From Tachypleus tridentatus (Eukaryota; Arthropoda; Merostomata; Xiphosura; Limulidae), in NCBI RefSeq assembly GCF_004210375.1, contig NW_027467782.1, positions 33,717,771-33,781,770 on the forward strand: a stretch of DNA of 64,000 nucleotides. The letters are read 5' to 3'. Below, piece by piece: positions 15,325-56,879 of the stretch; positions within the stretch are counted from its first letter, which is position 1, and each line of letters starts with the position of its first letter. The position numbers and the translations under genes are program-made. The notes beneath the pieces were generated by a model. The model was not told the DNA's origin. It saw only the letters and a list, made by a program, of their open reading frames with translations, and searched no databases.

Positions 15325-15335
15325 ATGCCCACGAA
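15325..15335 (+). repeat. Target-site duplication, left copy
   Basis: atgcccacgaa directly precedes the SINE and is repeated exactly at 15611-15621, directly after its tail. Confidence 0.9.
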
Positions 15336-20689: not shown

Positions 20690-21350
20690 TCCAGTGTCAG
20701 TGTTTCGGTCGCTCAAAGACGTCATGTTGTGGTTCATTGAACTGTGCTCATTCTTGCCCAGAATGGTTAGAAGAAAAAAGAGATGCATCATTTGAAAACG
20801 ATTTATAACATTACTTATCCTGAGGCTTGAAAATTGCTGTCCAGCACTTCATCTCAGATGTATGGCTGCTGCATGTCATCCCACAACTACAGTGGGAGTG
20901 CAGACAGATATCTCTGTGTCTCCAAAAGAATCATTCTCAAACCAAATGAAAAGGATTTTGACCTGCATTGTTAAAAAGTTGATGAATTAGCAACATCCAT
21001 CTCTGTCCCTAACATACATTCCAGCAAATCCCAAGATCCACTTTCTCTGGTTCTGGGTACAGGCATTTCTTTGGGTGCATCACCTTCTCCCACCACAAGA
21101 TGCAAAAGGATCATTTGTTCTTGTCCCCAGTCACTGGAATCCTCTTTAAACAGCATAGACCTACCCAATTGACCCAGGACAGGATCCATGGAGGTTGACA
21201 GACCTCCCTCAAATAAAAGACAGTAAAGAACAAAAGACATGGACGAAAACAGAAGGGTTCTCCACCCAACTTCCTTGCACATGAGTAATAATGTCCAACT
21301 TGATACAATGGAACTGTCGAGGTTTACGTTGTAATCTGGATGACATCAAA
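20690..21350 (+). mobile_element. LINE E: gag C-terminus and first residues of the endonuclease
   Basis: The plus strand, in several frames, shows gag C-terminal landmarks of an R1/Jockey-type LINE: a Cys-rich end with 'CPEW', 'YNITYPEA', 'TTTVGVQTDISVSP' and 'MEVDRPPS'. At 21291 a new frame opens with SNLIQWNCRGLRCNLDDIKT, the usual start of the endonuclease of ORF2. After DDIKT the sequence passes into the 63-bp array. The gag part has frameshifts and stops; the element has no recognisable 3' part on the far side of the array. Confidence 0.75.
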
Positions 21351-24300
21351 ACACAGCATCTTGAATCTATCTCTGTTCTGATTACTAGTGTTAGTATATG
21401 TCTAGTTGTAACTTTACAACATCTTGAATCTATCTCTGTTCTGATTACTAGTGTTAGTATATGTCTAGTTGTAACTTTACAACATCTTGAATCTATCTCT
21501 GTTCTGATTACTAGTGTTAGTATATGTCTAGTTGTAACTTTACAACATCTTGAATCTATCTCTGTTCTGATTACTAGTGTTAGTATATGTCTAGTTGTAA
21601 CTTTACAACATCTTGAATCTATCTCTGTTCTGATTACTAGTGTTAGTATATGTCTAGTTGTAACTTTACAACATCTTGAATCTATCTCTGTTCTGATTAC
21701 TAGTGTTAGTATATGTCTAGTTGTAACTTTACAACATCTTGAATCTATCTCTGTTCTGATTACTAGTGTTAGTATATGTCTAGTTGTAACTTTACAACAT
21801 CTTGAATCTATCTCTGTTCTGATTACTAGTGTTAGTATATGTCTAGTTGTAACTTTACAACATCTTGAATCTATCTCTGTTCTGATTACTAGTGTTAGTA
21901 TATGTCTAGTTGTAACCTTACAACATCTTGAATCTATCTCTGTTCTGATTACTAGTGTTAGTATATGTCTAGTTGTAACTTTACAACATCTTGAATCTAT
22001 CTCTGTTCTGATTACTAGTGTTAGTATATGTCTAGTTGTAACTTTACAACATCTTGAATCTATCTCTGTTCTGATTACTAGTGTTAGTATATGTCTAGTT
22101 GTAACTTTACAACATCTTGAATCTATCTCTGTTCTGATTACTAGTGTTAGTATATGTCTAGTTGTAACTTTACAACATCTTGAATCTATCTCTGTTCTGA
22201 TTACTAGTGTTAGTATATGTCTAGTTGTAACTTTACAACATCTTGAATCTATCTCTGTTCTGATTACTAGTGTTAGTATATGTCTAGTTGTAACTTTACA
22301 ACATCTTGAATCTATCTCTGTTCTGATTACTAGTGTTAGTATATGTCTAGTTGTAACTTTACAACATCTTGAATCTATCTCTGTTCTGATTACTAGTGTT
22401 AGTATATGTCTAGTTGTAACTTTACAACATCTTGAATCTATCTCTGTTCTGATTACTAGTGTTAGTATATGTCTAGTTGTAACTTTACAACATCTTGAAT
22501 CTATCTCTGTTCTGATTACTAGTGTTAGTATATGTCTAGTTGTAACTTTACAACATCTTGAATCTATCTCTGTTCTGATTACTAGTGTTAGTATATGTCT
22601 AGTTGTAACTTTACAACATCTTGAATCTATCTCTGTTCTGATTACTAGTGTTAGTATATGTCTAGTTGTAACTTTACAACATCTTGAATCTATCTCTGTT
22701 CTGATTACTAGTGTTAGTATATGTCTAGTTGTAACTTTACAACATCTTGAATCTATCTCTGTTCTGATTACTAGTGTTAGTATATGTCTAGTTGTAACTT
22801 TACAACATCTTGAATCTATCTCTGTTCTGATTACTAGTGTTAGTATATGTCTAGTTGTAACTTTACAACATCTTGAATCTATCTCTGTTCTGATTACTAG
22901 TGTTAGTATATGTCTAGTTGTAACTTTACAACATCTTGAATCTATCTCTGTTCTGATTACTAGTGTTAGTATATGTCTAGTTGTAACTTTACAACATCTT
23001 GAATCTATCTCTGTTCTGATTACTAGTGTTAGTATATGTCTAGTTGTAACTTTACAACATCTTGAATCTATCTCTGTTCTGATTACTAGTGTTAGTATAT
23101 GTCTAGTTGTAACTTTACAACATCTTGAATCTATCTCTGTTCTGATTACTAGTGTTAGTATATGTCTAGTTGTAACTTTACAACATCTTGAATCTATCTC
23201 TGTTCTGATTACTAGTGTTAGTATATGTCTAGTTGTAACTTTACAACATCTTGAATCTATCTCTGTTCTGATTACTAGTGTTAGTATATGTCTAGTTGTA
23301 ACTTTACAACATCTTGAATCTATCTCTGTTCTGATTACTAGTGTTAGTATATGTCTAGTTGTAACTTTACAACATCTTGAATCTATCTCTGTTCTGATTA
23401 CTAGTGTTAGTATATGTCTAGTTGTAACTTTACAACATCTTGAATCTATCTCTGTTCTGATTACTAGTGTTAGTATATGTCTAGTTGTAACTTTACAACA
23501 TCTTGAATCTATCTCTGTTCTGATTACTAGTGTTAGTATATGTCTAGTTGTAACTTTACAACATCTTGAATCTATCTCTGTTCTGATTACTAGTGTTAGT
23601 ATATGTCTAGTTGTAACTTTACAACATCTTGAATCTATCTCTGTTCTGATTACTAGTGTTAGTATATGTCTAGTTGTAACTTTACAACATCTTGAATCTA
23701 TCTCTGTTCTGATTACTAGTGTTAGTATATGTCTAGTTGTAACTTTACAACATCTTGAATCTATCTCTGTTCTGATTACTAGTGTTAGTATATGTCTAGT
23801 TGTAACTTTACAACATCTTGAATCTATCTCTGTTCTGATTACTAGTGTTAGTATATGTCTAGTTGTAACTTTACAACATCTTGAATCTATCTCTGTTCTG
23901 ATTACTAGTGTTAGTATATGTCTAGTTGTAACTTTACAACATCTTGAATCTATCTCTGTTCTGATTACTAGTGTTAGTATATGTCTAGTTGTAACTTTAC
24001 AACATCTTGAATCTATCTCTGTTCTGATTACTAGTGTTAGTATATGTCTAGTTGTAACTTTACAACATCTTGAATCTATCTCTGTTCTGATTACTAGTGT
24101 TAGTATATGTCTAGTTGTAACTTTACAACATCTTGAATCTATCTCTGTTCTGATTACTAGTGTTAGTATATGTCTAGTTGTAACTTTACAACATCTTGAA
24201 TCTATCTCTGTTCTGATTACTAGTGTTAGTATATGTCTAGTTGTAACTTTACAACATCTTGAATCTATCTCTGTTCTGATTACTAGTGTTAGTATATGTC

Positions 24301-27300
24301 TAGTTGTAACTTTACAACATCTTGAATCTATCTCTGTTCTGATTACTAGTGTTAGTATATGTCTAGTTGTAACTTTACAACATCTTGAATCTATCTCTGT
24401 TCTGATTACTAGTGTTAGTATATGTCTAGTTGTAACTTTACAACATCTTGAATCTATCTCTGTTCTGATTACTAGTGTTAGTATATGTCTAGTTGTAACT
24501 TTACAACATCTTGAATCTATCTCTGTTCTGATTACTAGTGTTAGTATATGTCTAGTTGTAACTTTACAACATCTTGAATCTATCTCTGTTCTGATTACTA
24601 GTGTTAGTATATGTCTAGTTGTAACTTTACAACATCTTGAATCTATCTCTGTTCTGATTACTAGTGTTAGTATATGTCTAGTTGTAACTTTACAACATCT
24701 TGAATCTATCTCTGTTCTGATTACTAGTGTTAGTATATGTCTAGTTGTAACTTTACAACATCTTGAATCTATCTCTGTTCTGATTACTAGTGTTAGTATA
24801 TGTCTAGTTGTAACTTTACAACATCTTGAATCTATCTCTGTTCTGATTACTAGTGTTAGTATATGTCTAGTTGTAACTTTACAACATCTTGAATCTATCT
24901 CTGTTCTGATTACTAGTGATTACTAGTGTTAGTATATGTCTAGTTGTAACTTTACAACATCTTGAATCTATCTCTGTTCTGATTACTAGTGTTAGTATAT
25001 GTCTAGTTGTAACTTTACAACATCTTGAATCTATCTCTGTTCTGATTACTAGTGTTAGTATATGTCTAGTTGTAACTTTACAACATCTTGAATCTATCTC
25101 TGTTCTGATTACTAGTGTTAGTATATGTCTAGTTGTAACTTTACAACATCTTGAATCTATCTCTGTTCTGATTACTAGTGTTAGTATATGTCTAGTTGTA
25201 ACTTTACAACATCTTGAATCTATCTCTGTTCTGATTACTAGTGTTAGTATATGTCTAGTTGTAACTTTACAACATCTTGAATCTATCTCTGTTCTGATTA
25301 CTAGTGTTAGTATATGTCTAGTTGTAACTTTACAACATCTTGAATCTATCTCTGTTCTGATTACTAGTGTTAGTGTTAGTATATGTCTAGTTGTAACTTT
25401 ACAACATCTTGAATCTATCTCTGTTCTGATTACTAGTGTTAGTATATGTCTAGTTGTAACTTTACAACATCTTGAATCTATCTCTGTTCTGATTACTAGT
25501 GTTAGTATATGTCTAGTTGTAACTTTACAACATCTTGAATCTATCTCTGTTCTGATTACTAGTGTTAGTATATGTCTAGTTGTAACTTTACAACATCTTG
25601 AATCTATCTCTGTTCTGATTACTAGTGTTAGTATATGTCTAGTTGTAACTTTACAACATCTTGAATCTATCTCTGTTCTGATTACTAGTGTTAGTATATG
25701 TCTAGTTGTAACTTTACAACATCTTGAATCTATCTCTGTTCTGATTACTAGTGTTAGTATATGTCTAGTTGTAACTTTACAACATCTTGAATCTATCTCT
25801 GTTCTGATTACTAGTGTTAGTATATGTCTAGTTGTAACTTTACAACATCTTGAATCTATCTCTGTTCTGATTACTAGTGTTAGTATATGTCTAGTTGTAA
25901 CTTTACAACATCTTGAATCTATCTCTGTTCTGATTACTAGTGTTAGTATATGTCTAGTTGTAACTTTACAACATCTTGAATCTATCTCTGTTCTGATTAC
26001 TAGTGTTAGTATATGTCTAGTTGTAACTTTACAACATCTTGAATCTATCTCTGTTCTGATTACTAGTGTTAGTATATGTCTAGTTGTAACTTTACAACAT
26101 CTTGAATCTATCTCTGTTCTGATTACTAGTGTTAGTATATGTCTAGTTGTAACTTTACAACATCTTGAATCTATCTCTGTTCTGATTACTAGTGTTAGTA
26201 TATGTCTAGTTGTAACTTTACAACATCTTGAATCTATCTCTGTTCTGATTACTAGTGTTAGTATATGTCTAGTTGTAACTTTACAACATCTTGAATCTAT
26301 CTCTGTTCTGATTACTAGTGTTAGTATATGTCTAGTTGTAACCTTACAACATCTTGAATCTATCTCTGTTCTGATTACTAGTGTTAGTATATGTCTAGTT
26401 GTAACTTTACAACATCTTGAATCTATCTCTGTTCTGATTACTAGTGTTAGTATATGTCTAGTTGTAACTTTACAACATCTTGAATCTATCTCTGTTCTGA
26501 TTACTAGTGTTAGTATATGTCTAGTTGTAACTTTACAACATCTTGAATCTATCTCTGTTCTGATTACTAGTGTTAGTATATGTCTAGTTGTAACTTTACA
26601 ACATCTTGAATCTATCTCTGTTCTGATTACTAGTGTTAGTATATGTCTAGTTGTAACTTTACAACATCTTGAATCTATCTCTGTTCTGATTACTAGTGTT
26701 AGTATATGTCTAGTTGTAACTTTACAACATCTTGAATCTATCTCTGTTCTGATTACTAGTGTTAGTATATGTCTAGTTGTAACTTTACAACATCTTGAAT
26801 CTATCTCTGTTCTGATTACTAGTGTTAGTATATGTCTAGTTGTAACTTTACAACATCTTGAATCTATCTCTGTTCTGATTACTAGTGTTAGTATATGTCT
26901 AGTTGTAACTTTACAACATCTTGAATCTATCTCTGTTCTGATTACTAGTGTTAGTATATGTCTAGTTGTAACTTTACAACATCTTGAATCTATCTCTGTT
27001 CTGATTACTAGTGTTAGTATATGTCTAGTTGTAACTTTACAACATCTTGAATCTATCTCTGTTCTGATTACTAGTGTTAGTATATGTCTAGTTGTAACTT
27101 TACAACATCTTGAATCTATCTCTGTTCTGATTACTAGTGTTAGTATATGTCTAGTTGTAACTTTACAACATCTTGAATCTATCTCTGTTCTGATTACTAG
27201 TGTTAGTATATGTCTAGTTGTAACTTTACAACATCTTGAATCTATCTCTGTTCTGATTACTAGTGTTAGTATATGTCTAGTTGTAACTTTACAACATCTT

Positions 27301-30300
27301 GAATCTATCTCTGTTCTGATTACTAGTGTTAGTATATGTCTAGTTGTAACTTTACAACATCTTGAATCTATCTCTGTTCTGATTACTAGTGTTAGTATAT
27401 GTCTAGTTGTAACTTTACAACATCTTGAATCTATCTCTGTTCTGATTACTAGTGTTAGTATATGTCTAGTTGTAACTTTACAACATCTTGAATCTATCTC
27501 TGTTCTGATTACTAGTGTTAGTATATGTCTAGTTGTAACTTTACAACATCTTGAATCTATCTCTGTTCTGATTACTAGTGTTAGTATATGTCTAGTTGTA
27601 ACTTTACAACATCTTGAATCTATCTCTGTTCTGATTACTAGTGTTAGTATATGTCTAGTTGTAACTTTACAACATCTTGAATCTATCTCTGTTCTGATTA
27701 CTAGTGTTAGTATATGTCTAGTTGTAACTTTACAACATCTTGAATCTATCTCTGTTCTGATTACTAGTGTTAGTATATGTCTAGTTGTAACTTTACAACA
27801 TCTTGAATCTATCTCTGTTCTGATTACTAGTGTTAGTATATGTCTAGTTGTAACTTTACAACATCTTGAATCTATCTCTGTTCTGATTACTAGTGTTAGT
27901 ATATGTCTAGTTGTAACTTTACAACATCTTGAATCTATCTCTGTTCTGATTACTAGTGTTAGTATATGTCTAGTTGTAACTTTACAACATCTTGAATCTA
28001 TCTCTGTTCTGATTACTAGTGTTAGTATATGTCTAGTTGTAACTTTACAACATCTTGAATCTATCTCTGTTCTGATTACTAGTGTTAGTATATGTCTAGT
28101 TGTAACTTTACAACATCTTGAATCTATCTCTGTTCTGATTACTAGTGTTAGTATATGTCTAGTTGTAACTTTACAACATCTTGAATCTATCTCTGTTCTG
28201 ATTACTAGTGTTAGTATATGTCTAGTTGTAACTTTACAACATCTTGAATCTATCTCTGTTCTGATTACTAGTGTTAGTATATGTCTAGTTGTAACTTTAC
28301 AACATCTTGAATCTATCTCTGTTCTGATTACTAGTGTTAGTATATGTCTAGTTGTAACTTTACAACATCTTGAATCTATCTCTGTTCTGATTACTAGTGT
28401 TAGTATATGTCTAGTTGTAACTTTACAACATCTTGAATCTATCTCTGTTCTGATTCTGTTCTAGTTGATTACTAGTGTTACAACATCTTGAATCTATCTC
28501 TGTTCTGATTACTAGTGTTAGTATATGTCTAGTTGTAACTTTACAACATCTTGAATCTATCTCTGTTCTGATTACTAGTGTTAGTATATGTCTAGTTGTA
28601 ACTTTACAACATCTTGAATCTATCTCTGTTCTGATTACTAGTGTTAGTATATGTCTAGTTGTAACTTTACAACATCTTGAATCTATCTCTGTTCTGATTA
28701 CTAGTGTTAGTATATGTCTAGTTGTAACTTTACAACATCTTGAATCTATCTCTGTTCTGATTACTAGTGTTAGTATATGTCTAGTTGTAACTTTACAACA
28801 TCTTGAATCTATCTCTGTTCTGATTACTAGTGTTAGTATATGTCTAGTTGTAACCTTACAACATCTTGAATCTATCTCTGTCTAAATACTTGTGTTAGTA
28901 TATGTCTAGTTGTAACTTTACAACATCTTGAATCTATCTCTGTTCTGATTACTAGTGTTAGTATATGTCTAGTTGTAACTTTACAACATCTTGAATCTAT
29001 CTCTGTTCTGATTACTAGTGTTAGTATATGTCTAGTTGTAACTTTACAACATCTTGAATCTATCTCTGTTCTGATTACTAGTGTTAGTATATGTCTAGTT
29101 GTAACTTTACAACATCTTGAATCTATCTCTGTTCTGATTACTAGTGTTAGTATATGTCTAGTTGTAACTTTACAACATCTTGAATCTATCTCTGTTCTGA
29201 TTACTAGTGTTAGTATATGTCTAGTTGTAACTTTACAACATCTTGAATCTATCTCTGTTCTGATTACTAGTGTTAGTATATGTCTAGTTGTAACTTTACA
29301 ACATCTTGAATCTATCTCTGTTCTGATTACTAGTGTTAGTATATGTCTAGTTGTAACTTTACAACATCTTGAATCTATCTCTGTTCTGATTACTAGTGTT
29401 AGTATATGTCTAGTTGTAACTTTACAACATCTTGAATCTATCTCTGTTCTGATTACTAGTGTTAGTATATGTCTAGTTGTAACTTTACAACATCTTGAAT
29501 CTATCTCTGTTCTGATTACTAGTGTTAGTATATGTCTAGTTGTAACTTTACAACATCTTGAATCTATCTCTGTTCTGATTACTAGTGTTAGTATATGTCT
29601 AGTTGTAACTTTACAACATCTTGAATCTATCTCTGTTCTGATTACTAGTGTTAGTATATGTCTAGTTGTAACTTTACAACATCTTGAATCTATCTCTGTT
29701 CTGATTACTAGTGTTAGTATATGTCTAGTTGTAACTTTACAACATCTTGAATCTATCTCTGTTCTGATTACTAGTGTTAGTATATGTCTAGTTGTAACTT
29801 TACAACATCTTGAATCTATCTCTGTTCTGATTACTAGTGTTAGTATATGTCTAGTTGTAACTTTACAACATCTTGAATCTATCTCTGTTCTGATTACTAG
29901 TGTTAGTATATGTCTAGTTGTAACTTTACAACATCTTGAATCTATCTCTGTTCTGATTACTAGTGTTAGTATATGTCTAGTTGTAACTTTACAACATCTT
30001 GAATCTATCTCTGTTCTGATTACTAGTGTTAGTATATGTCTAGTTGTAACTTTACAACATCTTGAATCTATCTCTGTTCTGATTACTAGTGTTAGTATAT
30101 GTCTAGTTGTAACTTTACAACATCTTGAATCTATCTCTGTTCTGATTACTAGTGTTAGTATATGTCTAGTTGTAACTTTACAACATCTTGAATCTATCTC
30201 TGTTCTGATTACTAGTGTTAGTATATGTCTAGTTGTAACTTTACAACATCTTGAATCTATCTCTGTTCTGATTACTAGTGTTAGTATATGTCTAGTTGTA

Positions 30301-42558: not shown

Positions 42559-43816
42559 GTTATCCCTCACTTATCAGTTTTATTTTTCTGTTATTTATCT
42601 TTTCGTTTGCTTACGTCATTTCATTACAACAATTGATTCAAGAGTATTGTTGCATTTCCAACCAATGCGAAGAAAGACAACGATAAAATGGAACCACAAT
42701 ATTCCTGAATATTTGTACACAGTAACTAAAGAGACGAGACTTTAAATTAAGCGGCCGAACTTTGAGAAGAAAGAACAAAATGTTACAGCAAAAAATTACT
42801 CACCTTGCATTCCACTGGTATTTCCACTAGTGCAATTTGTAGGTATAAAGTTTTGTATAAATATTTTAGTTGTATATTCACATAAGGTCATTTTATAAAA
42901 ATGAATTAAGTTCTTGAAATGATAAACAAAAGTCAAACAACTAGTAAGCAATATTCACTTTTCTCTGCAAGCTGTAGGAAGCAAGGAGGTCCTGTTAACT
43001 AACACTACTGTTTTAAAAAGCGTCGTATTAAAAAAATCGGAAAAGGGACTTTTCTAAGAGAAAAATATACGGAAGTTAGTGCAGGGGAAAACTGTTCTGA
43101 TTGCCGTAAGACAAATACGATTTTTGATCTATTAAGTATGGTACCGTTTATTTAAAATTTAACAGTTTTTTAACTGCATTCCTGAAAAGTATTTTTATAA
43201 ATTACATCAATAAAGATATAATCAAACATTCAGATTTAGGACAAGTGAAAGTCGGGTTCTTGTTACGAGGACAGTACTTTAAAATTCTGTTCTTTGATAA
43301 ACAAAGGTTTGTCGTACGTATCGTAGCTATTTGTATAATTGTCTGAATTTAGAATACCAACGTGGAATTTTTTTCACAGATTTTATTTTGCGGTGTCGTT
43401 TAATAGATACTGACACAATGTATTTATTATTTCGGTCATATACGACGTGTCATTTATATAATAGTAAGATTAGAAAATATCACCAAATTAATACCTGATA
43501 TTGGATTTACCAAATAATAATAATCTTCAACGTTACACTGCTGGCCAATATCTTAAGGCCAATGAACATAAAAACAAAATATGCATTTTGCATCGTAAGA
43601 CTAAACGACACATTTGAGTAGAGCTTCGAAAGATGAAAATAAAAAAGGGGAAAGTAAAAATGAAAAACTTTTTATCATTTAATAGAGGAAATGTGAACAG
43701 TATGAAATCAGCCTAAGTAACTAAAGAAGTCCTAAACAGGGTAGGAAACGCCTAACAAGAGGTCTCAGTACTGAGTTGCATGGTCGTCATTGTGAATAAT
43801 TTCAAATATTTCCTTT
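42559..43816. other. Non-coding stretch after the array
   Basis: The array stops abruptly within a unit at 42558. No LINE sequence follows. At 43541, 'acactgctggccaatatctt' resembles the terminal sequence of some Tc1/mariner elements, but no opposite end was found. Confidence 0.5.
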
Positions 43817-44168
43817 TAATACATAGTGGTTAAATTAATTAAATACAGAAGTAGTCACGAAAGGTTATTTAATGATTGAGAAAATTAAACATAACTATTT
43901 AACTCTATAAACAAGGGAAACTCCTGGCTGCAGTACCATGTATGGAAGCGTGATAAACCACGGGAAGGTCTTCTTACCAATTCTAGCTAACCTATACCAA
44001 ATAGAAAGGCCGAACTTACACCAGAAACTGCCCTCGAGGCAGACTGTAATATTGAGTAGGGGAACGTATCTTTGCATTACGCATCGGAAATGCATTGTTT
44101 CTGCATTCTAGACAAGGCTGGATTGTTCATAGCTGCTAGGAACGTGATCGATGTTCACAGATGTCCTA
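43817..44168 (+). repeat. Unclassified direct repeat, copy A
   Basis: From 'ttaatacatagtggttaaattaattaaatacag' to 'gatcgatgttcacagatgtc', the sequence is repeated with many differences at 44478-44830. Shared islands include 'tttaatgattgagaaaa', 'gaaggtcttctt', 'gaggcagactgtaat' and 'ggaatgcattgttt'. No coding potential is shared, so the unit looks like a non-coding repeat of unknown class. Confidence 0.75.
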
Positions 44169-44477
44169 GACATACGCTTCCAAAACTATAGCTCTAATAT
44201 TTTTCTGCTCCTTTATCACTCTTAATTTCTTTTGTTACTCAAGAGCATTACATGCAAAGTAAAAGTTGCTTTGCGTGTAAAATGTTTTTATCACAGAAAT
44301 GAAGACAACAGGTACTACACAATGCTCATCATCCTTTTTGACTTCAACTGACAGCAGAAATGTTTAGAACGTACAATGAGAGTTTACATGTCAGAGACAT
44401 ACACAAGACCTATCGATAAAGTTCTTTTGATGACTTTATGGTAAGTACCCTTATGTCAATCTTTTATCAAACTTCGT

Positions 44478-44847
44478 TTAATACCTGGTGACGGAATTAA
44501 TTAACTACAGATGTAGTGAGGAAAATTTACTTAATGATTGAGAAAATAAAACATGACTATTTAAGTCTATAAACAAGTGCAAAATGATGTCTCCAGTACC
44601 ATTTATGGAACCGTCACAAACCACGAGAAGGTCTTCTTCCCCATTTTAGCTAACCTATACTAAAGAGAAAGGCCCAACTTACACCCTCATCTGCTTAAGA
44701 GGCAGACTGTAATTTTGACTTGGGGCACTTAACTGTGCGTTTAGGCATCGGGAATGCATTGTTTCCGCTTTCGAGGAAAGGGTGAACAGGTGATAGCTTA
44801 AAGGGCCTTGATCGGTGTTCACAGATGTCAATCTTTTATCAACTTCT
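44478..44847 (+). repeat. Unclassified direct repeat, copy B
   Basis: Diverged second copy of 43817-44168 in the same orientation. About 310 unrelated bases separate the two copies. Copy B runs directly into the start of a third, partial copy. Confidence 0.75.
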
Positions 44848-44905
44848 TTTAATATTTAGTCGATGAATACAGAAATAGTCACTAAAAGTTAATTCATTAT
44901 GTAGG
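44848..44905 (+). repeat. Unclassified direct repeat, partial copy C
   Basis: ttaatatttagtcgatgaat followed by 'acagaaatagtcactaaaag' repeats the start of copies A and B, then stops. The head-to-tail order of B and C suggests a once-tandem repeat of about 370 bp. Confidence 0.6.
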
Positions 44906-44946
44906 TGTGGCATGGTTTCATTTCATTCGATAACCATTTAAAACTT

Positions 44947-45040
44947 ATCTATTAATAATAATAATAAAATAATAATTATTTAATAAATAATTAGATAATA
45001 ATAAATATTATCTATTAATAATAATAATAAAAAATCATGT
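44947..45040. repeat. TAA microsatellite block
   Basis: Two blocks of 'tatctattaataataataa' type sequence lie about 60 bp apart, with AT-only sequence between them. Confidence 0.85.
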
Positions 45041-45218
45041 CGTTTCCCTAATTTGGTTTCAGGTACATTTATATTTGTAATTGTACTCGCTTGTTTTTTT
45101 CGGTAATACATATTTCGTGGTTTATTTTCTTTCGCTCCTAACTTATTCATTCTTGTTATATAATTGTAGGTTTTCTGGTGTTTGCTCTATTGTTAATGTT
45201 ATTTTAAATCTGGCAGTT

Positions 45219-45498
45219 GACCCGGCATGGCCAAGCGTGTTAAGGCGTGCGATTCGTAATCTGAGGGTCGCGAGTTCGCATCCCGGTCGCGCCAAACATG
45301 CTCGCCCTTTCAGCCGTGGGGGCGTTATAATGTTACAGTAAATCCCACTATTCATTGGTAAAAGAGTAGCCCAAGAGTTGGCGGTGGGTAGTGATGAATA
45401 GCTGCCTTCCCTTTAATCTTACACTACTAAATTAGGGACGGCTAGCACAGATAGCCCTCGAGTAGCTTTAAGCGAAATTCAAAAAAACAAACAAAACA
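45219..45498 (+). repeat. Full-length SINE, first family
   Basis: It has a head with A box (tggccaagcgtgttaaggcg) and B box (gagttcgcatcccgg), a complete body and an aaaacaaacaaaac tail. No convincing target-site duplication is visible. It shares 'gtgatgaatagctgccttcc' and 'ttaatcttacactactaaat' with the copy at 52693-52959, so these two may belong to one subfamily. Confidence 0.93.
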
Positions 45499-46054
45499 AA
45501 GCTTTATTTTCCTTGGAGTATCCGTTCTTTTCTTAAAACTGGTGTCATGTTGTATGTAATATTAGATGTATGTGTGTATTAGAAGAGATGGATAATATAT
45601 ATTCTTACAAATTTTGTTTATACTTTGAAGAATGTTACAGTAATGTTAAGCTGTTAAGAAAATGTTCTAAATATCAAGGTCCGAAGACGAATTTTTAAGT
45701 TTCTACAGTGGTACGTCTGCAGTTTTATGTCGCTAGAAACCGGATTTCTATACCCATGGTAGCCAATGCACAGATAGACCTTGTATAGAATAGATTGTAA
45801 AATTAAATGCATAATAAAATATAAATTGCTTTATTAAAAGTGGGAATTTAAAAGTTCGTTCTTTGATCTGTATATATATATATATATATAAGTACTTTAA
45901 TTAACTAGAATTCGAAGATATTATTACAGGTTATATAGAAAGCTCAGTCCATCATTTCTTCCCGTTTATCTCTCTAAACATAATGGTTATGAATGAACAT
46001 GTGTACAACACTTTGGACAGTAAGCCATTTATAACTGACCTAATGTCGCTACAT
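45499..46054. other. Non-coding stretch with a short TA microsatellite
   Basis: A (ta)n run lies at about 45872-45890. Nothing else was recognised. Confidence 0.6.
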
Positions 46055-46312
46055 GGCTTAAACATCAAAACTTAATATTTTTCTTTTACTTAGGTCCGTG
46101 TTTTCAATTTTGTTCACAAAATCTACACTGTTTTGGATATGTAATAATGAATTTGTTGTAACAACTGGGGATAGATGTCCCGCTAATTGTTTTGATAATG
46201 TGTTTGTGACAGAACCCACTTGAGATATTATCAGACTCAAAGGACAGTCTTTATGCGTTTTAGACAAACCGTACGTGTAAAGTGTAATGTATTTTAACAT
46301 TACTTAAGTAAT
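46055..46312 (-). mobile_element. Penelope-like element RT fragment
   Basis: The minus strand reads 'LYTYGLSKTHKDCPLSLIIS', then 'GSVTNTLSKQLAGHLSPVV', 'NSVDFVNKI' and 'KILSFDV'. This matches the conserved N-terminal RT motifs of Penelope-like elements (YGLPKIHK, PLRPIVS..GS, LSK.LA, SFDV). Only about 80 residues remain, and no GIY-YIG endonuclease or terminal repeats were found. It is an isolated remnant. Confidence 0.75.
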
Positions 46313-47055
46313 CATCAAGTATATATTATGTGGTCTGTTAGAGTCAGACACCTCTTCAGGTAAGCTTAATTTTCATAAACATGCCCATCCATAAGATGTT
46401 CTAAATTTCTCTCACAAACGATTTTGTTCATAGTAACGATTTAGTTCGTTTTGTCTTACTTTTTCATTACAATATCGTTGTTAAACTTCAATTATTAAGA
46501 AAGAAGTATGGTTAATTTAGAGTAGAAATGCAGAAGCAGGTATCAAAGAAGTGAAAGGAATTATTAGAAGAAACTCAAAATATGGACCCTTAGAGACCAG
46601 TATTAACTATTAAACGGTTTGTTCAGTAGCTATAGCAGAAAGACAAGGGTTAGATAAATAGAAAATATCTAATTCAGCAAAGATGACTTTATGATTAACA
46701 GTGACACTAGATAACATAATGTTATATATTAAACGAGACAAACTGGTTTTGGTAAAGCTGAGGGCAATATATGGGCTGTGAAAATTCAAAATGAATGAAA
46801 GAACAAAATCAGAGAACGATAGGTTATCTTATTCATAGCTAATAACAGTCAAACTAAATGGCTAAGACCCATCTAATCATGACATAAATTAATTGTGTAG
46901 ACTGTTGATACACTTAGGTTAGTTTAACGAATCGGTAAGGTTAACCGATTATAAAGTTAATACAGTAAAGCAAAACTAACAGACTTACAAAAATTCAAGA
47001 ATCATCCAGCTTTAGTTTATAAATGACGACAAAAGAAGATAGTTAATAAATCAGA
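46313..47055. other. AT-rich non-coding stretch
   Basis: Nothing recognised on either strand. Confidence 0.55.
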
Positions 47056-47142
47056 AGTGTTTGTGTGTGTTTTATTATAGCAAAGCCACATAGGGCTATC
47101 TGCTGAGGCCACTGAGAGGAATCGAATCCCTGATTTTAGAGT
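47056..47142 (-). repeat. SINE second family, partial
   Basis: The minus strand has a B-box-like 'gggattcgattcctc' followed by 'cagatagccctatgtggctt' and 'gctataataaaacacacac'. This is the same layout as the copies at 1044-1160 and 15900-16026. The A-box end is not clear. Confidence 0.6.
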
Positions 47143-47765
47143 TAAATCAGAAATGAGATAGATACAATGACATGACGAGAATGAAATGAGTGATAAATAA
47201 AGGAGGAATGAGAATTTGAATAACTTAAAGACATTATGTACGTGTCAAATCACGAGACCAGTGAAACTGATTTGATATGATGTTGATAGAGTTATGAACA
47301 AAACGTTATATTAAGACTACAGGGAAAAAGTTATCAACTAAGAAGATTTTAGTTATTTCTTTTATCGACAACTGGAATGTCATGAACAGATCCATTGGAC
47401 TTACCATCAGCCATCTCATGAACATTGTACCAAATAGAAGAATCATGCACTCTAAAATTGGAACACTAATAGCGATTGGCAGATGTTTCCGAGGAGTTTT
47501 AGTAAGAACAGGAGCTTCTGATCCGTTACTTACTATATGTCATTTTTATTTTTGTGGTGTTAATGTATGTGCGATGTACTTGATATAATCCAGTTAATAA
47601 CTGGATAATATTTCAACTTAAATACTCGGGTATTATAAATATATATGTATGTGTATAAACATATATTAATAAGGGTATTAAATATGGTAATATTGTATTA
47701 CATGAATAAGAAGATAAGAGCTCATTTTTAAAATAAAATTTTAATAATATCCTTTCTTTTTCTCA
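47143..47765. other. AT-rich non-coding stretch
   Basis: Nothing recognised. The 68-residue frame at 47382-47588 has no family likeness. Confidence 0.55.
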
Positions 47766-47962
47766 CGAACTCGTAATCCGAGGGTCGTGGGTTCGAATCC
47801 AGGTCGCACCAAACATGTTCACCCTCCCAGCTGGGGGGGTGTTATAATGTCACGGTCAATCCCACTATTTGTTGGTAAAAGAGCAGCCCAAGAGTTGGCG
47901 GTGGGTGGTGATGACTAGCTGGCTTCCCTCTAGTCTTACACTGCAAAATTAGGAACGGCTAG
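47766..47962 (+). repeat. SINE first family, both ends missing, abutting LINE F
   Basis: It starts at 'cgaactcgtaatccgaggg', inside the head, and ends at 'ggaacggctag', inside the body. Its neighbour on the right is LINE reverse-transcriptase sequence on the opposite strand, with no tail between them. Confidence 0.85.
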
Positions 47963-48783
47963 CTAAGCTGTTGGCGTGTAACTGGGAAGTCGATAAGCCA
48001 GTCGAATGGCAAGATTCTGGGCTTGTTGCAATTTTTTTAAGGTGGTTGAGGGGTGCGTTCGCAGTAATCATGTTGCCGTATTCAATGATCGGCCAAATGT
48101 AAATCTTGTAAATGGTAAGAATCGTTTTAGTTCTACAGCCTTTGGCAATCATACTGATTCTTCTGAAGATTCGTTTGTAGACTTTTGAGAGTATGGTTCT
48201 GAAGTGATCAGTCCAAGTGAGTTTCTTGTTGAACGTGATACCAAGAAATTTAATAGTGGGGGAGAATTTAAACTTAGTCAGTTTGTCTTTAGGGATGGAT
48301 TTGCTTTTTCTCGATATTTTGAGTTTAAAGGTTATAGCCTGAGTTTTAGTTGCATTAAGCACGACCCGCCAGGTGTTAGTTGCACCAAGTAGTAATACTG
48401 TTCAGTGTGAATTGAACTTTAGAGGTGTCCAGTAGGGGTTCGCGTGACGCATTCCATACTGCTATGAGGTCAGCATATCGCGACGCATAGGTGTACTTAA
48501 CTTAAGGAAAAGGGATGTCGTTAACATATACATAAAAGAAGGCTGAGTACTGAACCTTGGGGAACGCCTGTCGAGAGTTGACCAATGTTAATTCTTACTT
48601 CAGCTGTTCTATTGTCTAAAAAGTTAGATATTCATCTTGTTAAGGTGGACGGGAAGTTAAACTGAAGGAGTATAAACTTGAGGTCCTGGTGCCAGACTGA
48701 GTCAAAGGCTTGTTTAACGTCTGAAAATAAGCCCACTGTAGTGTGGTTTTTATTAAATCCTTGTATGATAGATTAAAATAACC
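47963..48783 (-). mobile_element. LINE F: reverse-transcriptase fragment
   Basis: On the minus strand, starting right after the tRNA-Tyr gene, the sequence reads 'GFNKNHTTVGLFSDVKQAF' (RT palm, first catalytic Asp in SDVKQAFDSVWH), then 'LSTGVPQGSVLS' (RT block 4), then the thumb frame at 47949-48362 with 'FLGITFNKKLTWTDHF' and 'TILTIYKIYIWPIIEYG'. The FADD box region is degraded, and stops occur after the GVPQGSVLS block. Endonuclease, ORF1 and 3' end are absent. Confidence 0.85.
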
Positions 48784-48869
48784 TCCCACGAGGCGGATTT
48801 GAACCACCGACCTATGGATAACTATAACCCTCCTACAGTCCACCCCTCTACCAACTGAGCTATCGTCGG
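48784..48869 (-). tRNA. tRNA-Tyr: tRNA-Tyr (GTA anticodon) with a 13-nt intron
   Basis: On the minus strand the sequence folds as a standard tRNA: acceptor CCGACGA with TCGTGGG, D arm GCTCAGTTGGTAGAGG, anticodon stem GTGGA with TCCAT, loop CT-GTA-G, variable AGGTC, T arm GGTGG-TTCAAAT-CCGCC and discriminator A. An intron of 13 nt (gagggttatagtt) sits after the base 3' of the anticodon, where eukaryotic tRNA-Tyr genes usually carry one. A TTTT terminator follows within a few bases. Two pairs are mismatched (third acceptor pair G-G and outer D-stem pair G-G), so it may be a slightly decayed copy. LINE F begins immediately at its 3' end. Confidence 0.88.
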
Positions 48870-49063
48870 ATGTTATAGACTAAACCAACTAGTTTTAACT
48901 GAAAATCGTACTTGACGTCGTTAAGCTCCGCCCAGACCTGACTGAACTTTCAAAAACTGAGCGGTAAACTCTATATAGTCCCTTCAGCTCTCATCTGATG
49001 GAAACTTATGGAAAAGATAACAGACTCTTGTTTGATATAGAAACTAGTAATATTATCAATGAC

Positions 49064-51935
49064 ATTCAAAATGCAGCCCGGCATCAGACCAGCGATTACA
49101 TTAACTGAAACTATCTTTCAAGCATTCAACCCTAAACATATGACAGTTGCAGCATTCCTGAATGTTAAAAAAAACATTCGTTTGGCATAACGGACTACCG
49201 TTCAAACTGTACCAACTCAAAATTACATAACGGACTGCCGTTCAAACTGTACCAACTCAAAATTACATAACGGACTGCCGTTCAAACTGTACCAACTCAA
49301 AATTACATAACGGACTGCCGTTCAAACTGTACCAACTCAAAATTACATAACGGACTGCCGTTCAAACTGTACCAACTCAAAATTACATAACGGACTGCCG
49401 TTCAAACTGTACCAACTCAAAATTACATAACGAACAGCCGTTCAAACTGTACCAACTCAAAATTACATAACGGACTGCCGTTCAAACTGTACCAACTCAA
49501 AATTACATAACGGACTGCCGTTCAAACTGTACCAACTCAAAATTACATAACGGACTGCCGTTCAAACTGTACCAACTCAAAATTCCATAACGAACTGCCG
49601 TTCAAACTGTACCAACTCAAAATTACATAACGAACAGCCGTTCAAACTGTACCAACTCAAAATTACATAACGGACTGCCGTTCAAACTGTACCAACTCAA
49701 AATTACATTACGGACTGCCGTTCAAATTGTACCAACTCAAAATTACATTACGGACTGCCGTTCAAATTGTACCAACTCAAAATTCCATAACGAACTGCCG
49801 TTCAAACTGTACCAACTCAAAATTACATAACGAACAGCCGTTCAAACTGTACCAACTCAAAATTACATAACGGACTGCCGTTCAAACTGTACCAACTCAA
49901 AATTACATAACGGACTGCCGTTCAAACTGTACCAACTCAAAATTACATAACGGACTGCCGTTCAAACTGTACCAACTCAAAATTACATAACGGACTGCCG
50001 TTCAAACTGTACCAACTCAAAATTCCATAACGAACTGCCGTTCAAACTGTACCAACTCAAAATTACATAACGAACAGCCGTTCAAACTGTACCAACTCAA
50101 AATTACATAACGGACTGCCGTTCAAACTGTACCAACTCAAAATTACATAACGGACTGCCGTTCAAACTGTACCAACTCAAAATTACATTACGGACTGCCG
50201 TTCAAATTGTACCAACTCAAAATTACATAACGGACTGCCGTTCAAACTGTACCAACTCAAAATTACATAACGAACTGCCGTTCAAACTGTACCAACTCAA
50301 AATTACATAACGGACTGCCGTTCAAACTGTACCAACTCAAAATTACATAACGGACTGCCGTTCAAACTGTACCAACTCAAAATTACATAACGGACTGCCG
50401 TTCAAACTGTACCAACTCAAAATTACATAACGGACTGCCGTTCAAACTGTACCAACTCAAAATTACATAACGAACTGCCGTTCAAACTGTACCAACTCAA
50501 AATTACATAACGGACTGCCGTTCAAACTGTACCAACTCAAAATTACATAACGGACTGCCGTTCAAACTGTACCAACTCAAAATTACATAACGGACTGCCG
50601 TTCAAACTGTACCAACTCAAAATTACATAACGGACTGCCGTTCAAACTGTACCAACTCAAAATTACATAACGGACTGCCGTTCAAACTGTACCAACTCAA
50701 AATTACATAACGGACTGCCGTTCAAACTGTACCAACTCAAAATTACATAACGGACTGCCGTTCAAACTGTACCAACTCAAAATTACATAACGCACTGCCG
50801 TTCAAACTGTACCAACTCAAAATTACATAACGGACTGCCGTTCAAACTGTACCAACTCAAAATTACATAACGGACTGCCGTTCAAACTGTACCAACTCAA
50901 AATTACATAACGGACTGCCGTTCAAACTGTACCAACTCAAAATTACATAACGGACTGCCGTTCAAACTGTACCAACTCAAAATTACATAACGGACTGCCG
51001 TTCAAGCTGTACCAACTCAAAATTACATAACGGACTGCCGTTCAAACTGTACCAACTCAAAATTACATAACGGACTGCCGTTCAAACTGAACCAACTCAA
51101 AATTCCACACACAATTATTCGCTGTATCTCAAGTTTTCTCCCCAACATACAGGCCAGAGCACAATTCAATCAAATACATTCCCGCTTATTCAGGCTGGTG
51201 GCAGACGTACCGCAAGGGTCTGCTGTCAGCTCACTCTTGAACTTAATATACTTCAACAACGTTCGGCTCCTCAAACTCGGGTATACTCAGGCGTCACAAT
51301 ATGCTAATAACGCTGCTGTTTCGAGTACGTCAAGAGAATAATTAGTCGCAGCTAGTAGAGCTCAAACGTCGCTCAATCACATAACCGAATTGTGTGATCG
51401 CAGACGTATAGCTTTAAATCCTAACAAAATACAGGCAATTGTATTTCACCCATGTTGTAAAAAGAAAAATAATAAATTAATCCAACCAAAACTTACTCTA
51501 CTAGACACCGATATAAAATTAACTAATTCTATAAATACATCGAAGTCACCTTCAATCGGTCTGTATAATAGACGGGTCACTTTAGCAAAATTTGTAAATT
51601 TGTCAATCAACGTAATACTTTTTTTCAGACGCATTGGGGGTACTCACAAAGGACGCTTGGCCAGTACCACTACAACTATTTACAAAGCTTATATTAGACC
51701 ACTTACTGAATATGGATACATAGTCGCGTGCAGCATGCTCAATGACCTCATGCAAAAGTTAGAAACACTACGATATCGAGTTCCCCGTGTAGCACATCGT
51801 TTACCAAGGTATACGCCCCAAGGCTACTTAGATTCACTACGGATATTACCTAAACTTAGTGAAATAACCCACAATTTAGCCGCAAGATATTATCAAAGAG
51901 CCAGAACAAGAAAAACAATTCTTAAACTTAGCTGA
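49064..51935 (+). mobile_element. LINE D: reverse-transcriptase region split by a 40-bp array
   Basis: Before the array the plus strand reads 'LTETIFQAFNPKHMTVAAF' and 'LNVKKNIR', the RT palm region; after it 'IIRCISSFLPN', 'ADVPQGSAVSS' (block 4), 'YTQASQYANNAA' where FADDTA is expected, and the thumb frame 51390-51935 ('CDRRRIALNPNKIQAIVF', 'IYKAYIRPLTEYGYIVA'). The catalytic Asp pair is changed to Asn-Asn and a stop precedes the thumb frame, so it is dead. Both sides of the array belong to one ORF. Confidence 0.85.
49186..51105 (+). repeat. 40-bp tandem array, 48 copies, inside LINE D RT
   Basis: The unit is cataacggactgccgttcaa followed by actgtaccaactcaaaatta; 1920 bp hold 48 units with no length change. 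Read in the RT frame, the unit encodes HNGLPFKLYQLKI, i.e. the segment after 'AFDxVW' in LINE RTs. Because 40 is not a multiple of 3, the frame cycles through all registers and stops appear. Variant units (cgaacagccg, cgaactgccg, aattcc, cattacgg with ttcaaattgt) recur as blocks spaced 200 and 240 bp apart, which shows duplication of multi-unit blocks. Confidence 0.97.
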
Positions 51936-52471
51936 AACACCCAACACGTGGCGCCCCCACTAGTCTCCTTAATATATTTGTAGTGTATAGAGTACTAACC
52001 ACTTTCCCCTACACCAGATTCTTGACACAGGATCTATAGATCCCACACCACTCTGAAGGACCCTAAGTCCCATACCGGTCGTTTATCTTTGTGATACTTA
52101 CTAGTCGGTACCTGTCGTCAGTTTTTCCGCCGCTGCTTGCTTGCCTATTATCCATAACCACAATTTGTTTGTTTATACGTGTCAGTAATGTACGTAAGTA
52201 TTTACATACGTGAATTCGCACGTCCTTTGTTGTTGTTTTTTCTCATGTAGCTTTACCTAATATCCAGTCACGAGTAGGTAGGAGAGAAAATAAATTTCTG
52301 AGTTGATTCTGACTCATAACCTCGGCTAGGGACCAGTTAGATCTTAAACCGAAATATCTGCATGTTTTCTCTGCTGTAGATAAAGTTAGAGAGAAATAGT
52401 ATTCAGGAAGACCTTTCCTCTGCACATTTTGTCTGGTCGCTATTTTTTACGTTTTTCTACTCTTTTCAAAT
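51936..52471. other. Non-coding stretch between LINE D and the hAT relic
   Basis: Nothing recognised; part may be the LINE 3' UTR or the hAT 5' end. No terminal inverted repeat was identified. Confidence 0.5.
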
Positions 52472-52692
52472 ATGGGGTGTTACGAAACTAATGAAGTGTA
52501 TTCATATTTCATAATCGCTGGTTCTCGCGAACACGAAAAAGCAACTTGCAGTGTAACTGGTTGCACTAAGGTTTTAAAGAATCCTTGTGTTATTAATCTA
52601 ACATTACACATGGAGAGACACTATAAAGCAGAATTTGAAAATCTAGTAAGAAGACGCGAAGCTTCAACTATGAAAAGATCACTCCTTCAAGG
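52472..52692 (+). pseudogene. hAT transposase N-terminal BED zinc finger
   Basis: The frame from 52472 reads MGCYETNEVYSYF and then 'ATCSVTGCTKVLKN' with two Cys, followed by 'LTLHMERHYKAEFENL' with two His. This is the C-x4-C ... H-x4-H arrangement of a BED finger, which binds transposon ends or promoters. The frame runs into the SINE inserted after 'KRSLLQG', so the original downstream sequence is lost from this piece. Confidence 0.7.
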
Positions 52693-52959
52693 ACCCGGCA
52701 TGGCCAGGTGGGTTAAGGCGTAATCCGAGGGTCGCGGGTTCGAATCCCGGTCGCACCAAACATGCTCGCCCTTTCAGCCGTGGAGGCGTTATAATGTTAC
52801 TGTCAATCCCACTATTCGTTGGTAAAAGAGTAGCCCACGACTTGGCGGTGGGTAGTGATGAATAGCTGCCTTCCCTTTAATCTTACACTACTAAATTAGG
52901 GACGGCTAGCACAGATAGCCCTCGAGTAGCTTTGTGCGAAATTCAAAACAAACAAAAAC
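52693..52959 (+). repeat. SINE first family inside the hAT relic, directly followed by LINE C
   Basis: The head (acccggcatggccaggtggg) has lost about ten bases between A and B boxes; the body and tail (aaaacaaacaaaaac) are complete. The left neighbour is hAT coding sequence. The right neighbour is LINE RT sequence in the same orientation, beginning within a few bases of the tail. actccttcaa (52681-52690) and actcctgcaa (52960-52969) match in nine of ten positions; this may be a target duplication or chance. Confidence 0.9.
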
Positions 52960-53648
52960 ACTCCTGCAATATGAGAATAAACACAGCAACACATTTCGTA
53001 GTCTTTACGAAATCCACAAAACACAAAAAACAACAGCCAGAACTATATATGAATGGCACTCTACTCCAGATTGCCCCATCGGCAAAATTTGTAGGTCTGA
53101 CCTATTATTCAAAACTAACTTGGATCAATCATGTGAACGAAATTAAAAATAAAGTCTGGCGAAGAACTAACTATGCTAGGAGTCTAACTGATAAAAACAG
53201 TGGAGCATCTACAGATAACATACTAAAAATCTATAAAACATATATTAGACCTGTAATAGATTATGCAGCTCCAGCATGGATAACTGTAAGCAATAAAATA
53301 ATTAAACCCAAACTACAAACAATCCAAAACACACTCCTCACAACTGCATACAGAGTTCCAAGAACAATATCATCTCAGTTCATTCACAAATACTCGAACA
53401 TACCAACCATACCAGATAGACTCCTACATATTACAATAATGTACTTTAATAAGAATTGGATGAAAAACGAATTACTATGCGAACTAGACAGGTACCTCAT
53501 ACATGATGAAGCTAGTCCTAAATATCTCTCCCCAGTTAACTTATATTTCAAATATAAAAATAAATAAAAGAAGAAAATATATAAACTTTAAATAAAAATT
53601 AAAAAATATATATTTATAGTTTATTTATTTATGTATTTAAAAAAAAAA
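52960..53648 (+). mobile_element. LINE C: RT thumb, C-terminus and 3' UTR with poly(A)
   Basis: The open frame (to 53567) reads 'NMRINTATHFVVFTKS', 'YMNGTLLQIAPSAKFVGLTY', 'LTWINHVNEIKNKVWR', 'IYKTYIRPVIDYAAPAW', 'AYRVPRTISSQFIH' and ends 'PVNLYFKYKNK' before a stop. This is the post-catalytic part of a Jockey-like ORF2, 5'-truncated, followed by an AT-rich 3' UTR and an A run at 53639-53648. It is the least damaged LINE end in the window and can be compared directly with LINE B. Confidence 0.88.
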
Positions 53649-53879
53649 TGCCACCAGCAAACTTGACATTCTGCTAATAGAATAATAACTGTATACAAGC
53701 CAAAATACATGGACATTGTCCTGTAAAAGACCAAATAAAATTCAGTTCACAGTCATAAATATCAATCAGCCAAGTACGGGGAGGAGGAAGAGATCATAGA
53801 GAACTTGACCCTACCAGGGTATGTACCCAAACACCGACGACATTCACAATATGAGAAGACTCAAGACCACAGCGACACC
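53649..53879. other. Unassigned stretch between LINE C and the rest of the hAT relic
   Basis: Neither LINE nor hAT similarity is clear. It could be LINE 3' UTR, hAT linker or another insertion. Confidence 0.4.
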
Positions 53880-54604
53880 AAGCGTAGAAAAACTATTCAC
53901 GAGTTGTTGTTTTTTTTCAACGATAAATATTCCAGTGGACATAAAAAGGTTTCATAATGCTATGATTGAGTTGGTAACCCTAAATTTGAGACATTTTCCT
54001 ACAGTATAGGAGAGTATGTTTTTAAAGTAATCGATCCAATTAAAAATGTTCTTAACACAATAGATTTAGTTGATAAAAAAGCTATAGAAATTGTAAAACA
54101 AATAAGTGAAGAGCTGCAAAACAGATGTTTTCATTGAAAATTAACATCGCATCTTGTCTGGATAGGTCTGTGCTAGCCATTAATGTCCAAGTCATTGATA
54201 GCGACTCTCTTCAAATAAGAACGTTAGCTGTTACAAACTTATATTCAGGACATTTTGGTAAAAAAAAAAAAAAACACCATAGAAATAGATATAAATGTGT
54301 TATCGAAATACAACTTGAGTGTATTCTATCACTACTGATAATGCTAGAAATATGGTTAAAGTTGTGGAATTAATTTCCGATGACGGAAATGTGACTGTTA
54401 GTGATGAAAGTGAACTATATTAAACTAGGCAGTGTTGTTTCTGTTAAATATGCTGCTTACACTTTGCAACTTGCAGTAATAGATAGGTTAAATAAAGAAC
54501 TGTGTGTAATTACTATATCTGTCGAAAAAGCTGCGAACTCCAGCTATAAAGAATATTTCAAAGACAAAGAAATATCATATGCTTATTGTGGACGGGAGAT
54601 GCGA

Positions 54605-54974
54605 TGGTGCTCAACATGTGATGTGATCTCACGTTTAGTGGAACTTGGTGCTCAACATGTGATGTGATCTCATGTCTAGTGGAACTTAGTGCTCAACATG
54701 TGATGTGATCTCCCGTTTAGTGGAACTTGGTGCTCAACATGTGATGTGATCTCCCGTTTAGTGGAACTTGGTGATCAACATGTGATGTGATCTCCCGTGT
54801 AGTGGAACTTGGTGCTCAACATGTGATGTGATCTCACGTTTAGTGGAACTTGGTGCTAAACATGTGATGTGATCTCCCGTTTAGTGGAACTTGGTGCTAA
54901 ACATGTGATGTGATCTCCCGTTTAGTGGAACTTGGTGCTCAACATGTGATGTGATCTCCTGTTTAGTGGAACTT
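54605..54974 (+). repeat. 41-bp tandem array, nine copies, inside the hAT relic
   Basis: The unit is tggtgctcaacatgtgatgt then gatctcacgtttagtggaac plus one base. Nine copies differ by a few substitutions (tcacg/tcccg, gctc/gatc/gcta, gttt/gtgt/gtct). The first unit lies in the transposase frame and encodes the conserved segment RW-CSTCDVISRLVEL, so the array grew from transposase coding DNA. Because 41 is not a multiple of 3 the frame is lost. Confidence 0.95.
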
Positions 54975-55300
54975 CCACCGTTTATTTAAATAACTAAAAA
55001 CATTCTTTTCAATCCCGAAATAAATTACAATAAATTGTACTCGTATTAGAACCGGCTAAAAAGCTGCAGTACAGTTACAAGAAGAAAATTTAACTCCTGG
55101 AGACTTCTATAAAGTGTGGCTTGTTTGTAAAAGTGAAATATCCATAATCAAACGTCTGCTGGCTCACAACATCACAGAACTAATGAAAGCTAGGAAAAAA
55201 ACTTCTTAAAAATGAAGTAATACTGGCATCGTTATATCTAGATTATAGATTTAGTGTTTTGTTATGTGAAGCAGAACAGGAACAAGCCGTAAATCATTTG

Positions 55301-55400
55301 ATCAAACTTAATGGCAGATTATGTGCAATGAATCCTAAACTTGAACTTTAATCAAACTTAACGTCAGATTATGTGCAATGAATCCTAAACTTGAACTTCA
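55301..55400 (+). repeat. 50-bp tandem duplication in the hAT relic
   Basis: atcaaacttaatggcagatt through 'cctaaacttgaacttta' (55301-55350) is repeated next to itself with two differences. Both copies lie in transposase coding sequence shortly before the C-terminal domain. Confidence 0.9.
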
Positions 55401-56764: not shown

Positions 56765-56870
56765 GTAGCCCAAGAACTTGCGTGGGTGATGATGACCAAT
56801 TGCCTTCCTACAGTCTTATACTGATAACTTAGGGACGGCTAGCTTTACGGGAAATTCAAAAACAAACAAG
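56765..56870 (+). repeat. SINE first family, 3' half, degraded
   Basis: The 3' body (gtagcccaagaacttgcgtg, 'agggacggctagc') and the tail 'aaattcaaaaacaaacaagc' are present. The head is missing. Its tail touches the inner end of LINE B, which lies on the other strand. Confidence 0.8.
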
Positions 56871-56879
56871 CCAAACCTT

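Follow-up and report, generated by a model that had tools for sequence, protein, structure and literature searches.

Minisatellites that derive from transposons are already well described, and the tandem arrays considered here are an ordinary case of the phenomenon; they lie in a 64-kb stretch of the Tachypleus tridentatus genome (contig NW_027467782.1), all 64,000 nucleotides of which are referred to below as the window. Two accounts serve for comparison. In the human survey of Ahmed and Liang (2012; PMC3389668), 7,276 transposon-derived loci make up 23% of minisatellites and satellites; the arrays are mostly confined to a single locus (5,747 of 5,932 clusters) and were enlarged through local duplication. 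Hot spots are reported there for AluS and LTR12, two in each, and for neither AluJ nor AluY. The survey accepts units longer than 20 bp, in at least 2 copies, with at least 95% identity between units and a guanine plus cytosine (G+C) content of at least 40%. It puts the transposon share of the human genome at 44% or more, and by our own rough comparison, made subject to the G+C filter, the 23% share shows no excess over that coverage. Zattera and Bruschi (2022; PMC9659126) describe satellites derived from ORF2 (the second open reading frame, ORF) of the long interspersed elements (LINEs) CR1 (chicken HinfI) and L1 (PROsat and Pvc 20), and from a CACTA transposase (CficCl-61-40). Repetitive and non-coding parts of transposons prevail among their sources, with LINE ORF2 and the CACTA transposase among the coding ones, and they report no conclusive evidence for preferred transposon parts. 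A source in the hAT superfamily was not seen in their table of transposon-derived satellites.

Tandem features were located across the window with Tandem Repeats Finder (TRF), which recovered all four features where the original prediction for this DNA had put them, and with the periods it gave (Table 1). With 9 to 336 copies and matches of 95-99%, the arrays are beyond what chance would give. The 63-, 40- and 41-bp units are mutually unrelated, as had also been proposed (their local scores are reached by 333, 265 and 373 of 500 shuffles), and this rules out a single satellite spreading to all three sites. Consensus G+C is 30% for the 63-bp unit, 40% for the 40-bp unit, 46% for the 41-bp unit and 32% for the 50-bp unit. 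Under the rules of PMC3389668, the three arrays would qualify by unit length, copy number and identity, with the 50-bp pair (94%) just short; the 40- and 41-bp units pass the G+C filter, and the 63- and 50-bp units would be removed by it.

The human set (PMC3389668) consists of locally duplicated tandem arrays that match or overlap a transposon by at least one period; the 40-bp array clearly does so on this measure, and the 41-bp array, the 50-bp duplication and the 63-bp array are candidates. The human hosts are chiefly Alu, endogenous retroviruses with their long terminal repeats (ERV/LTR), and L1, with a mean of 2.3-2.4 units in Alu, whereas here 9 and 48 units occur in a hAT-like relic and a LINE. 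Flanking direct repeats of 5-20 bp mark 300 human loci but none of the arrays in the window: no direct repeat of at least 5 bp, as in the Haber and Louis slippage model cited in PMC3389668, was found at the array edges, where the homology is at most 3 bp. The satellites of PMC9659126 resemble those here in taking their unit from LINE or DNA transposon coding sequence; they are satellite families, however, and the present units are described from this window. The account considered probable for the window combines ordinary minisatellites born inside dead transposon copies with one young, large satellite that abuts a LINE-like fragment.

Table 1. Tandem features of the window and the transposon pieces that adjoin, contain or parallel them
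Feature	Positions	Strand	Description
LINE E, LINE-like 5' fragment	20649-21352	+	degraded ORF1 with a zinc-knuckle-like stretch, then ORF2 start MSNLIQWNCRGLRCNLDDIKT
63-bp array	21353-42558	+	TRF: period 63, 336.4 copies, 99% matches
LINE C, paralogous reverse transcriptase (RT) piece	48635-48772	-	40-bp segment once; Pfam RVT_1
LINE D, left RT flank	48968-49185	+	stops just before the 40-bp array; ORF 49041-49187 matches LINE C and LINE G
40-bp array	49186-51104	+	TRF: period 40, 48.0 copies, 97% matches; 48 units, each an RT segment; first unit reads HNGLPFKLYQLKI
LINE D, right RT flank and C-terminal part	51105-51935	+	Pfam RVT_1, tblastn
hAT-like relic (putative)	52472-55700	+	ORFs with hAT-like motifs; broken by an insert at about 52695-53567
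41-bp array	54605-54974	+	TRF: period 41, 9.0 copies, 95% matches
50-bp tandem duplication	55297-55398	+	TRF: period 50, 2.0 copies, 94%
LINE G, second paralogous RT piece	57484-57600	-	40-bp segment once, TIWHNGLRHRLTEMD; tblastn with LINE C, E 5e-8

Expansion of a reverse transcriptase segment: the 40-bp array

In the 40-bp array, one segment of a LINE RT has been expanded in place to 48 copies. The conclusion follows from the presence of RT sequence on both flanks of the array and of the segment, once only, in the paralogous pieces LINE C and LINE G, and it bears out the prediction that the repeated unit is part of the RT of LINE D. On the left, the flanking ORF aligns with LINE C (score 51) and with LINE G (score 44), and none of 2000 shuffles reaches either score. 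The first unit WHNGLPFKLYQLKI aligns equally clearly with WHNGLRHRLTEM of LINE G (score 40, 0/2000 shuffles). LINE C itself falls on columns 64-99 of Pfam RVT_1 (expectation value, E, 3.9e-4), with 20.6 bits under a cutoff of 29.6 bits. On the right, the last unit together with the flank extends the LINE C alignment weakly, and the piece at 50991-51338 lies on RVT_1 columns 89-160, again under the cutoff; by our own counting, LINE C and this right piece have the same phenylalanine at column 89. Farther along, 51342-51932 matches LINE C (E 1.2e-9) and 52932-53477 (E 1.1e-7) by tblastn, and gives no Pfam match when searched alone.

Variant units of the array (18 of the 48 differ from the consensus) reappear at spacings of 5 and 11 units, a pattern whose maximum is reached by 147 of 5000 shuffles and which points to block copying of several units at a time. 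One variant, 40A>C, is identical to the base found at the right border of the array, and the units that carry it may thus preserve the first junction. The unit contains a hairpin, AACGG-ACTG-CCGTT, and a dimer of it folds better than shuffled sequence (z -2.57; 1/200 shuffles). Hairpin propensity was rejected as a shared cause of the tandem features, since the 63-, 41- and 50-bp stretches fold no better than shuffles (115, 131 and 174 of 200). The longest perfect stems are 7 bp in the 63-bp unit (24/500 shuffles) and 5 bp in the 40-bp unit (116/500); none of 5 bp or more occurs within the 41-bp or 50-bp units.

Each array had been predicted to have arisen at a conserved motif, a placement that probably reflects ascertainment, because a 40-bp piece can be identified as RT only if it is recognisable. 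The 40-bp segment in fact sits just downstream of what we take to be the aspartate motif, and not on it, as judged from the paralogues FSDVKQAFDSVWH and FVDIEKAFDTIWH.

Close to LINE C is a tRNA gene (48783-48870, minus strand; Rfam RF00005, 46.9 bits), called Pro-AGG by ARAGORN in bacterial mode; by eye it reads better as what is presumably an intron-bearing tRNA-Tyr(GTA). Its 3' end is followed after about 10 bp, on the same strand, by the start of the LINE C RT frame.

The 41-bp array, the 50-bp duplication and their hAT-like host

The 41-bp array and the 50-bp duplication share one host, the hAT-like relic, and have in common near-whole copy numbers and junction homologies of 1-2 bp. The first 41-bp unit reads RWCSTCDVISRLVEL, in agreement with the prediction that the array is a segment of that relic. 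Only 1 of its 9 units equals the consensus, and the units comprise 7 distinct sequences. Both features likely grew in situ from transposon coding sequence, and the host, a putative hAT element, is likely correctly named. The label depends on the motifs TTDNARNM, AAYTLQLAV, RWCSTCD and VERLF in the relic's frame, which stand in what we take to be the order expected of hAT; it is this part of the prediction that found no match in databases, as described below. Two of the hAT-like ORFs, searched against the PDB, had 6 and 1 matches, respectively; all had E values of 0.17 or worse, no transposase was among them, and they were taken as chance. Scanning viral contigs for the hAT motif patterns gave 0 stretches in one scan and 4 in another, every one of the latter in frames of 17-26 codons.

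The insert within the relic (52695-53567) consists of a copy of a repeat resembling a short interspersed element (SINE), followed directly by a C-terminal piece of a LINE RT. This tRNA-derived, SINE-like repeat, recognised by eye and by short tblastn matches, has copies at 15335-15615, 45215-45495 and 52695-52955, as well as partial ones; it presumably resembles a repeat that is common in horseshoe crabs.

A property that separates the tandem features of the window is their register, that is, the array length modulo the period. Since a single-copy stretch duplicated in place should yield an array that is an integral multiple of its unit, to within the junction homology, in-situ growth is expected to leave a value near zero. 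The register is -1 bp for the 40-bp array, +1 bp for the 41-bp array and +2 bp for the 50-bp duplication, and the chance that all three would fall within 2 bp of zero is approximately 5/40 x 5/41 x 5/50 = 0.0015. That of the 63-bp array, taken from the unit list and the edges, is +26 bp. Junction homology, read by eye, amounts to 2 bp at the 40-bp array, 1 bp at the 41-bp array, 2 bp at the 50-bp duplication and at most 3 bp, possibly ACA, at the left edge of the 63-bp array. The 40-, 41- and 50-bp unit lengths all shift the reading frame, and such growth would therefore be unexpected within a working element.

A plausible course of events may be outlined. A degenerate coding stretch would first have been duplicated in tandem at 1-2 bp of homology, perhaps through replication slippage or microhomology end joining; this is proposed for the 40-bp array, and the other two features with a near-zero register probably began in the same way. 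Later growth would have proceeded by local copying of units, and in the 40-bp array also of multi-unit blocks, as its repeating variants suggest, to reach 48 and 9 copies with the original flanks still on either side.

The 63-bp array and the LINE-like fragment beside it

By far the largest tandem feature begins directly after the reading frame MSNLIQWNCRGLRCNLDDIKT, an ORF2-like start, and its contact with the LINE-like fragment at the left edge is plain; the two are only shown to touch. LINE E is presumably a LINE, an assignment made by motif. The 63-bp unit comprises 21 codons, is open in the ORF2 frame, and in rotation gives a peptide (ICLVVTL...ESISV) that, to our eye, faintly recalls what we take to be an endonuclease (EN) stretch, ICLQET...SIS. 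It also holds an inverted repeat with perfect arms of 7 bp around a loop of 2 bases (GTTGTAA CT TTACAAC), which spans the unit boundary drawn by TRF.

Among the 337 units of the array, 330 are exactly 63 bp and 325 equal the consensus. Of the remainder, five have a single substitution, six vary in length internally and one is a terminal piece of 26 bp. The six length variants all differ in sequence and each occurs in one unit; internal duplications occur in unit 57 (10 bp), in unit 64 (6 bp) and, near-exact, in unit 199 (6 bp). One substitution, 61T>C, is found in four dispersed units (9, 79, 119 and 334). Because 325 of 337 units are identical to the consensus, the array must be young, having been recently amplified or homogenised, or else its copy number is partly a product of assembly.

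Comparisons aimed at the ancestry of the unit were largely negative. Pfam recognised no family in three stretches of the LINE E region (21288-21479, 20649-20792 and 20662-20805), nor did it match the 63-bp unit placed inside a 64-residue query. With the unit read in six frames against the EN N-termini of two further LINE copies in the window, LINE B and LINE G, the best result was reached by 35 of 500 shuffles, twice among 12 comparisons; in a direct comparison with the EN of LINE B, 1904 of 2000 shuffles did as well. As a control of power, the LINE-like start itself was compared with LINE B (1164 and 1393 of 2000 shuffles) and with LINE G (741 of 2000); since this EN-like start fails against the same comparators, the unit's lack of an EN match says little. 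The right flank of the array (42559-45416), searched with the array masked against 19 LINE- and hAT-like pieces, gave no tblastn match at E 0.5. The prediction that the array begins within the EN of LINE E is thus upheld as to where it starts, but not as to the unit being LINE sequence.

Degenerate patterns for relatives of the EN start found 1 and 0 stretches in viral contigs and 2 in genome contigs; two of these matches, one among phage-like ORFs and one in a frame broken by a stop, were taken as chance. A PDB search with the EN of LINE B returned 0 matches at E 0.1.

Several other features of the window may be recorded. The regions 16740-18970 and 56832-59171, both on the minus strand, are diverged copies of one LINE type, with ENs 36% identical (tblastn E 6e-46), and the former retains an open frame of 322 codons with an EN (Pfam PF14529, E 1.1e-19). 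To the right of the 63-bp array, 43815-44165 and 44477-44829 are direct copies of a 353-bp stretch, 79.9% identical, whose starts are 662 bp apart.

Origins of the arrays and their wider meaning

The 63-bp array ends out of register against DNA that is not recognised as LINE, which suggests that at least one of its edges was remade by deletion or rearrangement, or that the array was brought from elsewhere. That it is a pre-existing or transported satellite, to which the LINE-like fragment was joined by deletion or rearrangement, is given a little less than an even chance. LINE-like sequence on one side only, a copy number that is non-integral by 26 bp and a unit that matches no LINE piece all agree with such a history; against it, the rest of the window holds no full copy of the unit, the nearest stretch being 23 bp at 87%, an array grown in situ that had lost its right end would look alike, and the tests of the unit are of little power. 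It is unlikely that the copy numbers, chiefly the 337 units of 63 bp, are in part an assembly artefact: the near-identity of the units and the restriction of each of the six length variants to one unit, as consensus errors might be, would fit, but the dispersed 61T>C variant is not easily made by simple duplication in an assembler.

The original prediction went further, and had all three arrays, the 63-bp array included, grow out of transposon coding sequence, with transposon bodies acting as hot spots of array birth in the genome. This too appears unlikely as a whole: growth from coding sequence is established for the 40-bp array, the 41-bp array and 50-bp duplication are likely further cases, and it is for the 63-bp array that the claim falters. 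In its favour, the first bases of the 63-bp array fall in an EN-like frame, with perhaps 3 bp (ACA) of homology at the junction, its 21-codon unit is open in that frame, and the failure of the unit against EN comparators says little. Standing against it are the unmatched right flank, the lack of a match to either EN N-terminus in the window, the end 26 bp out of register, and the human survey, which shows no excess over coverage (PMC3389668). The counts of loci cut both ways. Transposon coding spans, partly assigned by eye, occupy 9787 of 40403 non-array bases (24.2%), a figure that supersedes an earlier 8300 of 40400 obtained before LINE G was found. At this coverage 3 of the 4 features with periods of 30 bp or more fall within such sequence (P 0.047), as do 4 of 8 merged TRF loci with a score of at least 50 (P 0.10), or 5 of 8 (P 0.024) when the abutting 63-bp array is counted. 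This one-window enrichment is no more than suggestive, as two of the three inside features share one relic and are not independent, and the window was picked after the fact. The further claim that much of the local satellite DNA comes from dead transposons so far finds no support in the base count, 21206 of the 23597 tandem bases belonging to the 63-bp array.

Birth in place within dead transposons remains the preferred explanation for the smaller arrays, and several points weigh against it. The right-flank test of the 40-bp array is weak by itself (88/2000 shuffles; Pfam E 0.11), and the tests of the 63-bp unit, which the EN-like start also fails, have little power. Support for hAT in the relic pieces was absent from Pfam (eleven queries), from the PDB sequence search and from tblastn against plasmids. 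Microhomology of 1-2 bp is no more than chance gives and does not single out slippage. Lastly, the arrays are seen at one locus and might have been inherited with a transposon family, already present within it and spread by transposition, as PMC3389668 suggests for human LTR12. Such a history is very improbable here: LINE C and LINE G have the 40-bp segment once, even though they are diverged and perhaps of other families, and the 40- and 41-bp units break the frame of a needed enzyme, which makes an autonomous source unlikely.

What the window offers is one clean, well-bounded case in which an array was born in place within an RT gene. It also offers a register test (length modulo period), of help in telling arrays still at their birthplace from those with remade edges. 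The stronger view, in which decaying LINE and hAT bodies are preferred birth sites of minisatellites and a seed in the EN frame recently became a 21-kb, 337-copy, nearly mutation-free block, is regarded as quite improbable. If the enrichment were true, dead transposons would rank among the main sources from which new satellite DNA arises, and a single locus would allow the growth of one seed into a young array of 21 kb to be traced.

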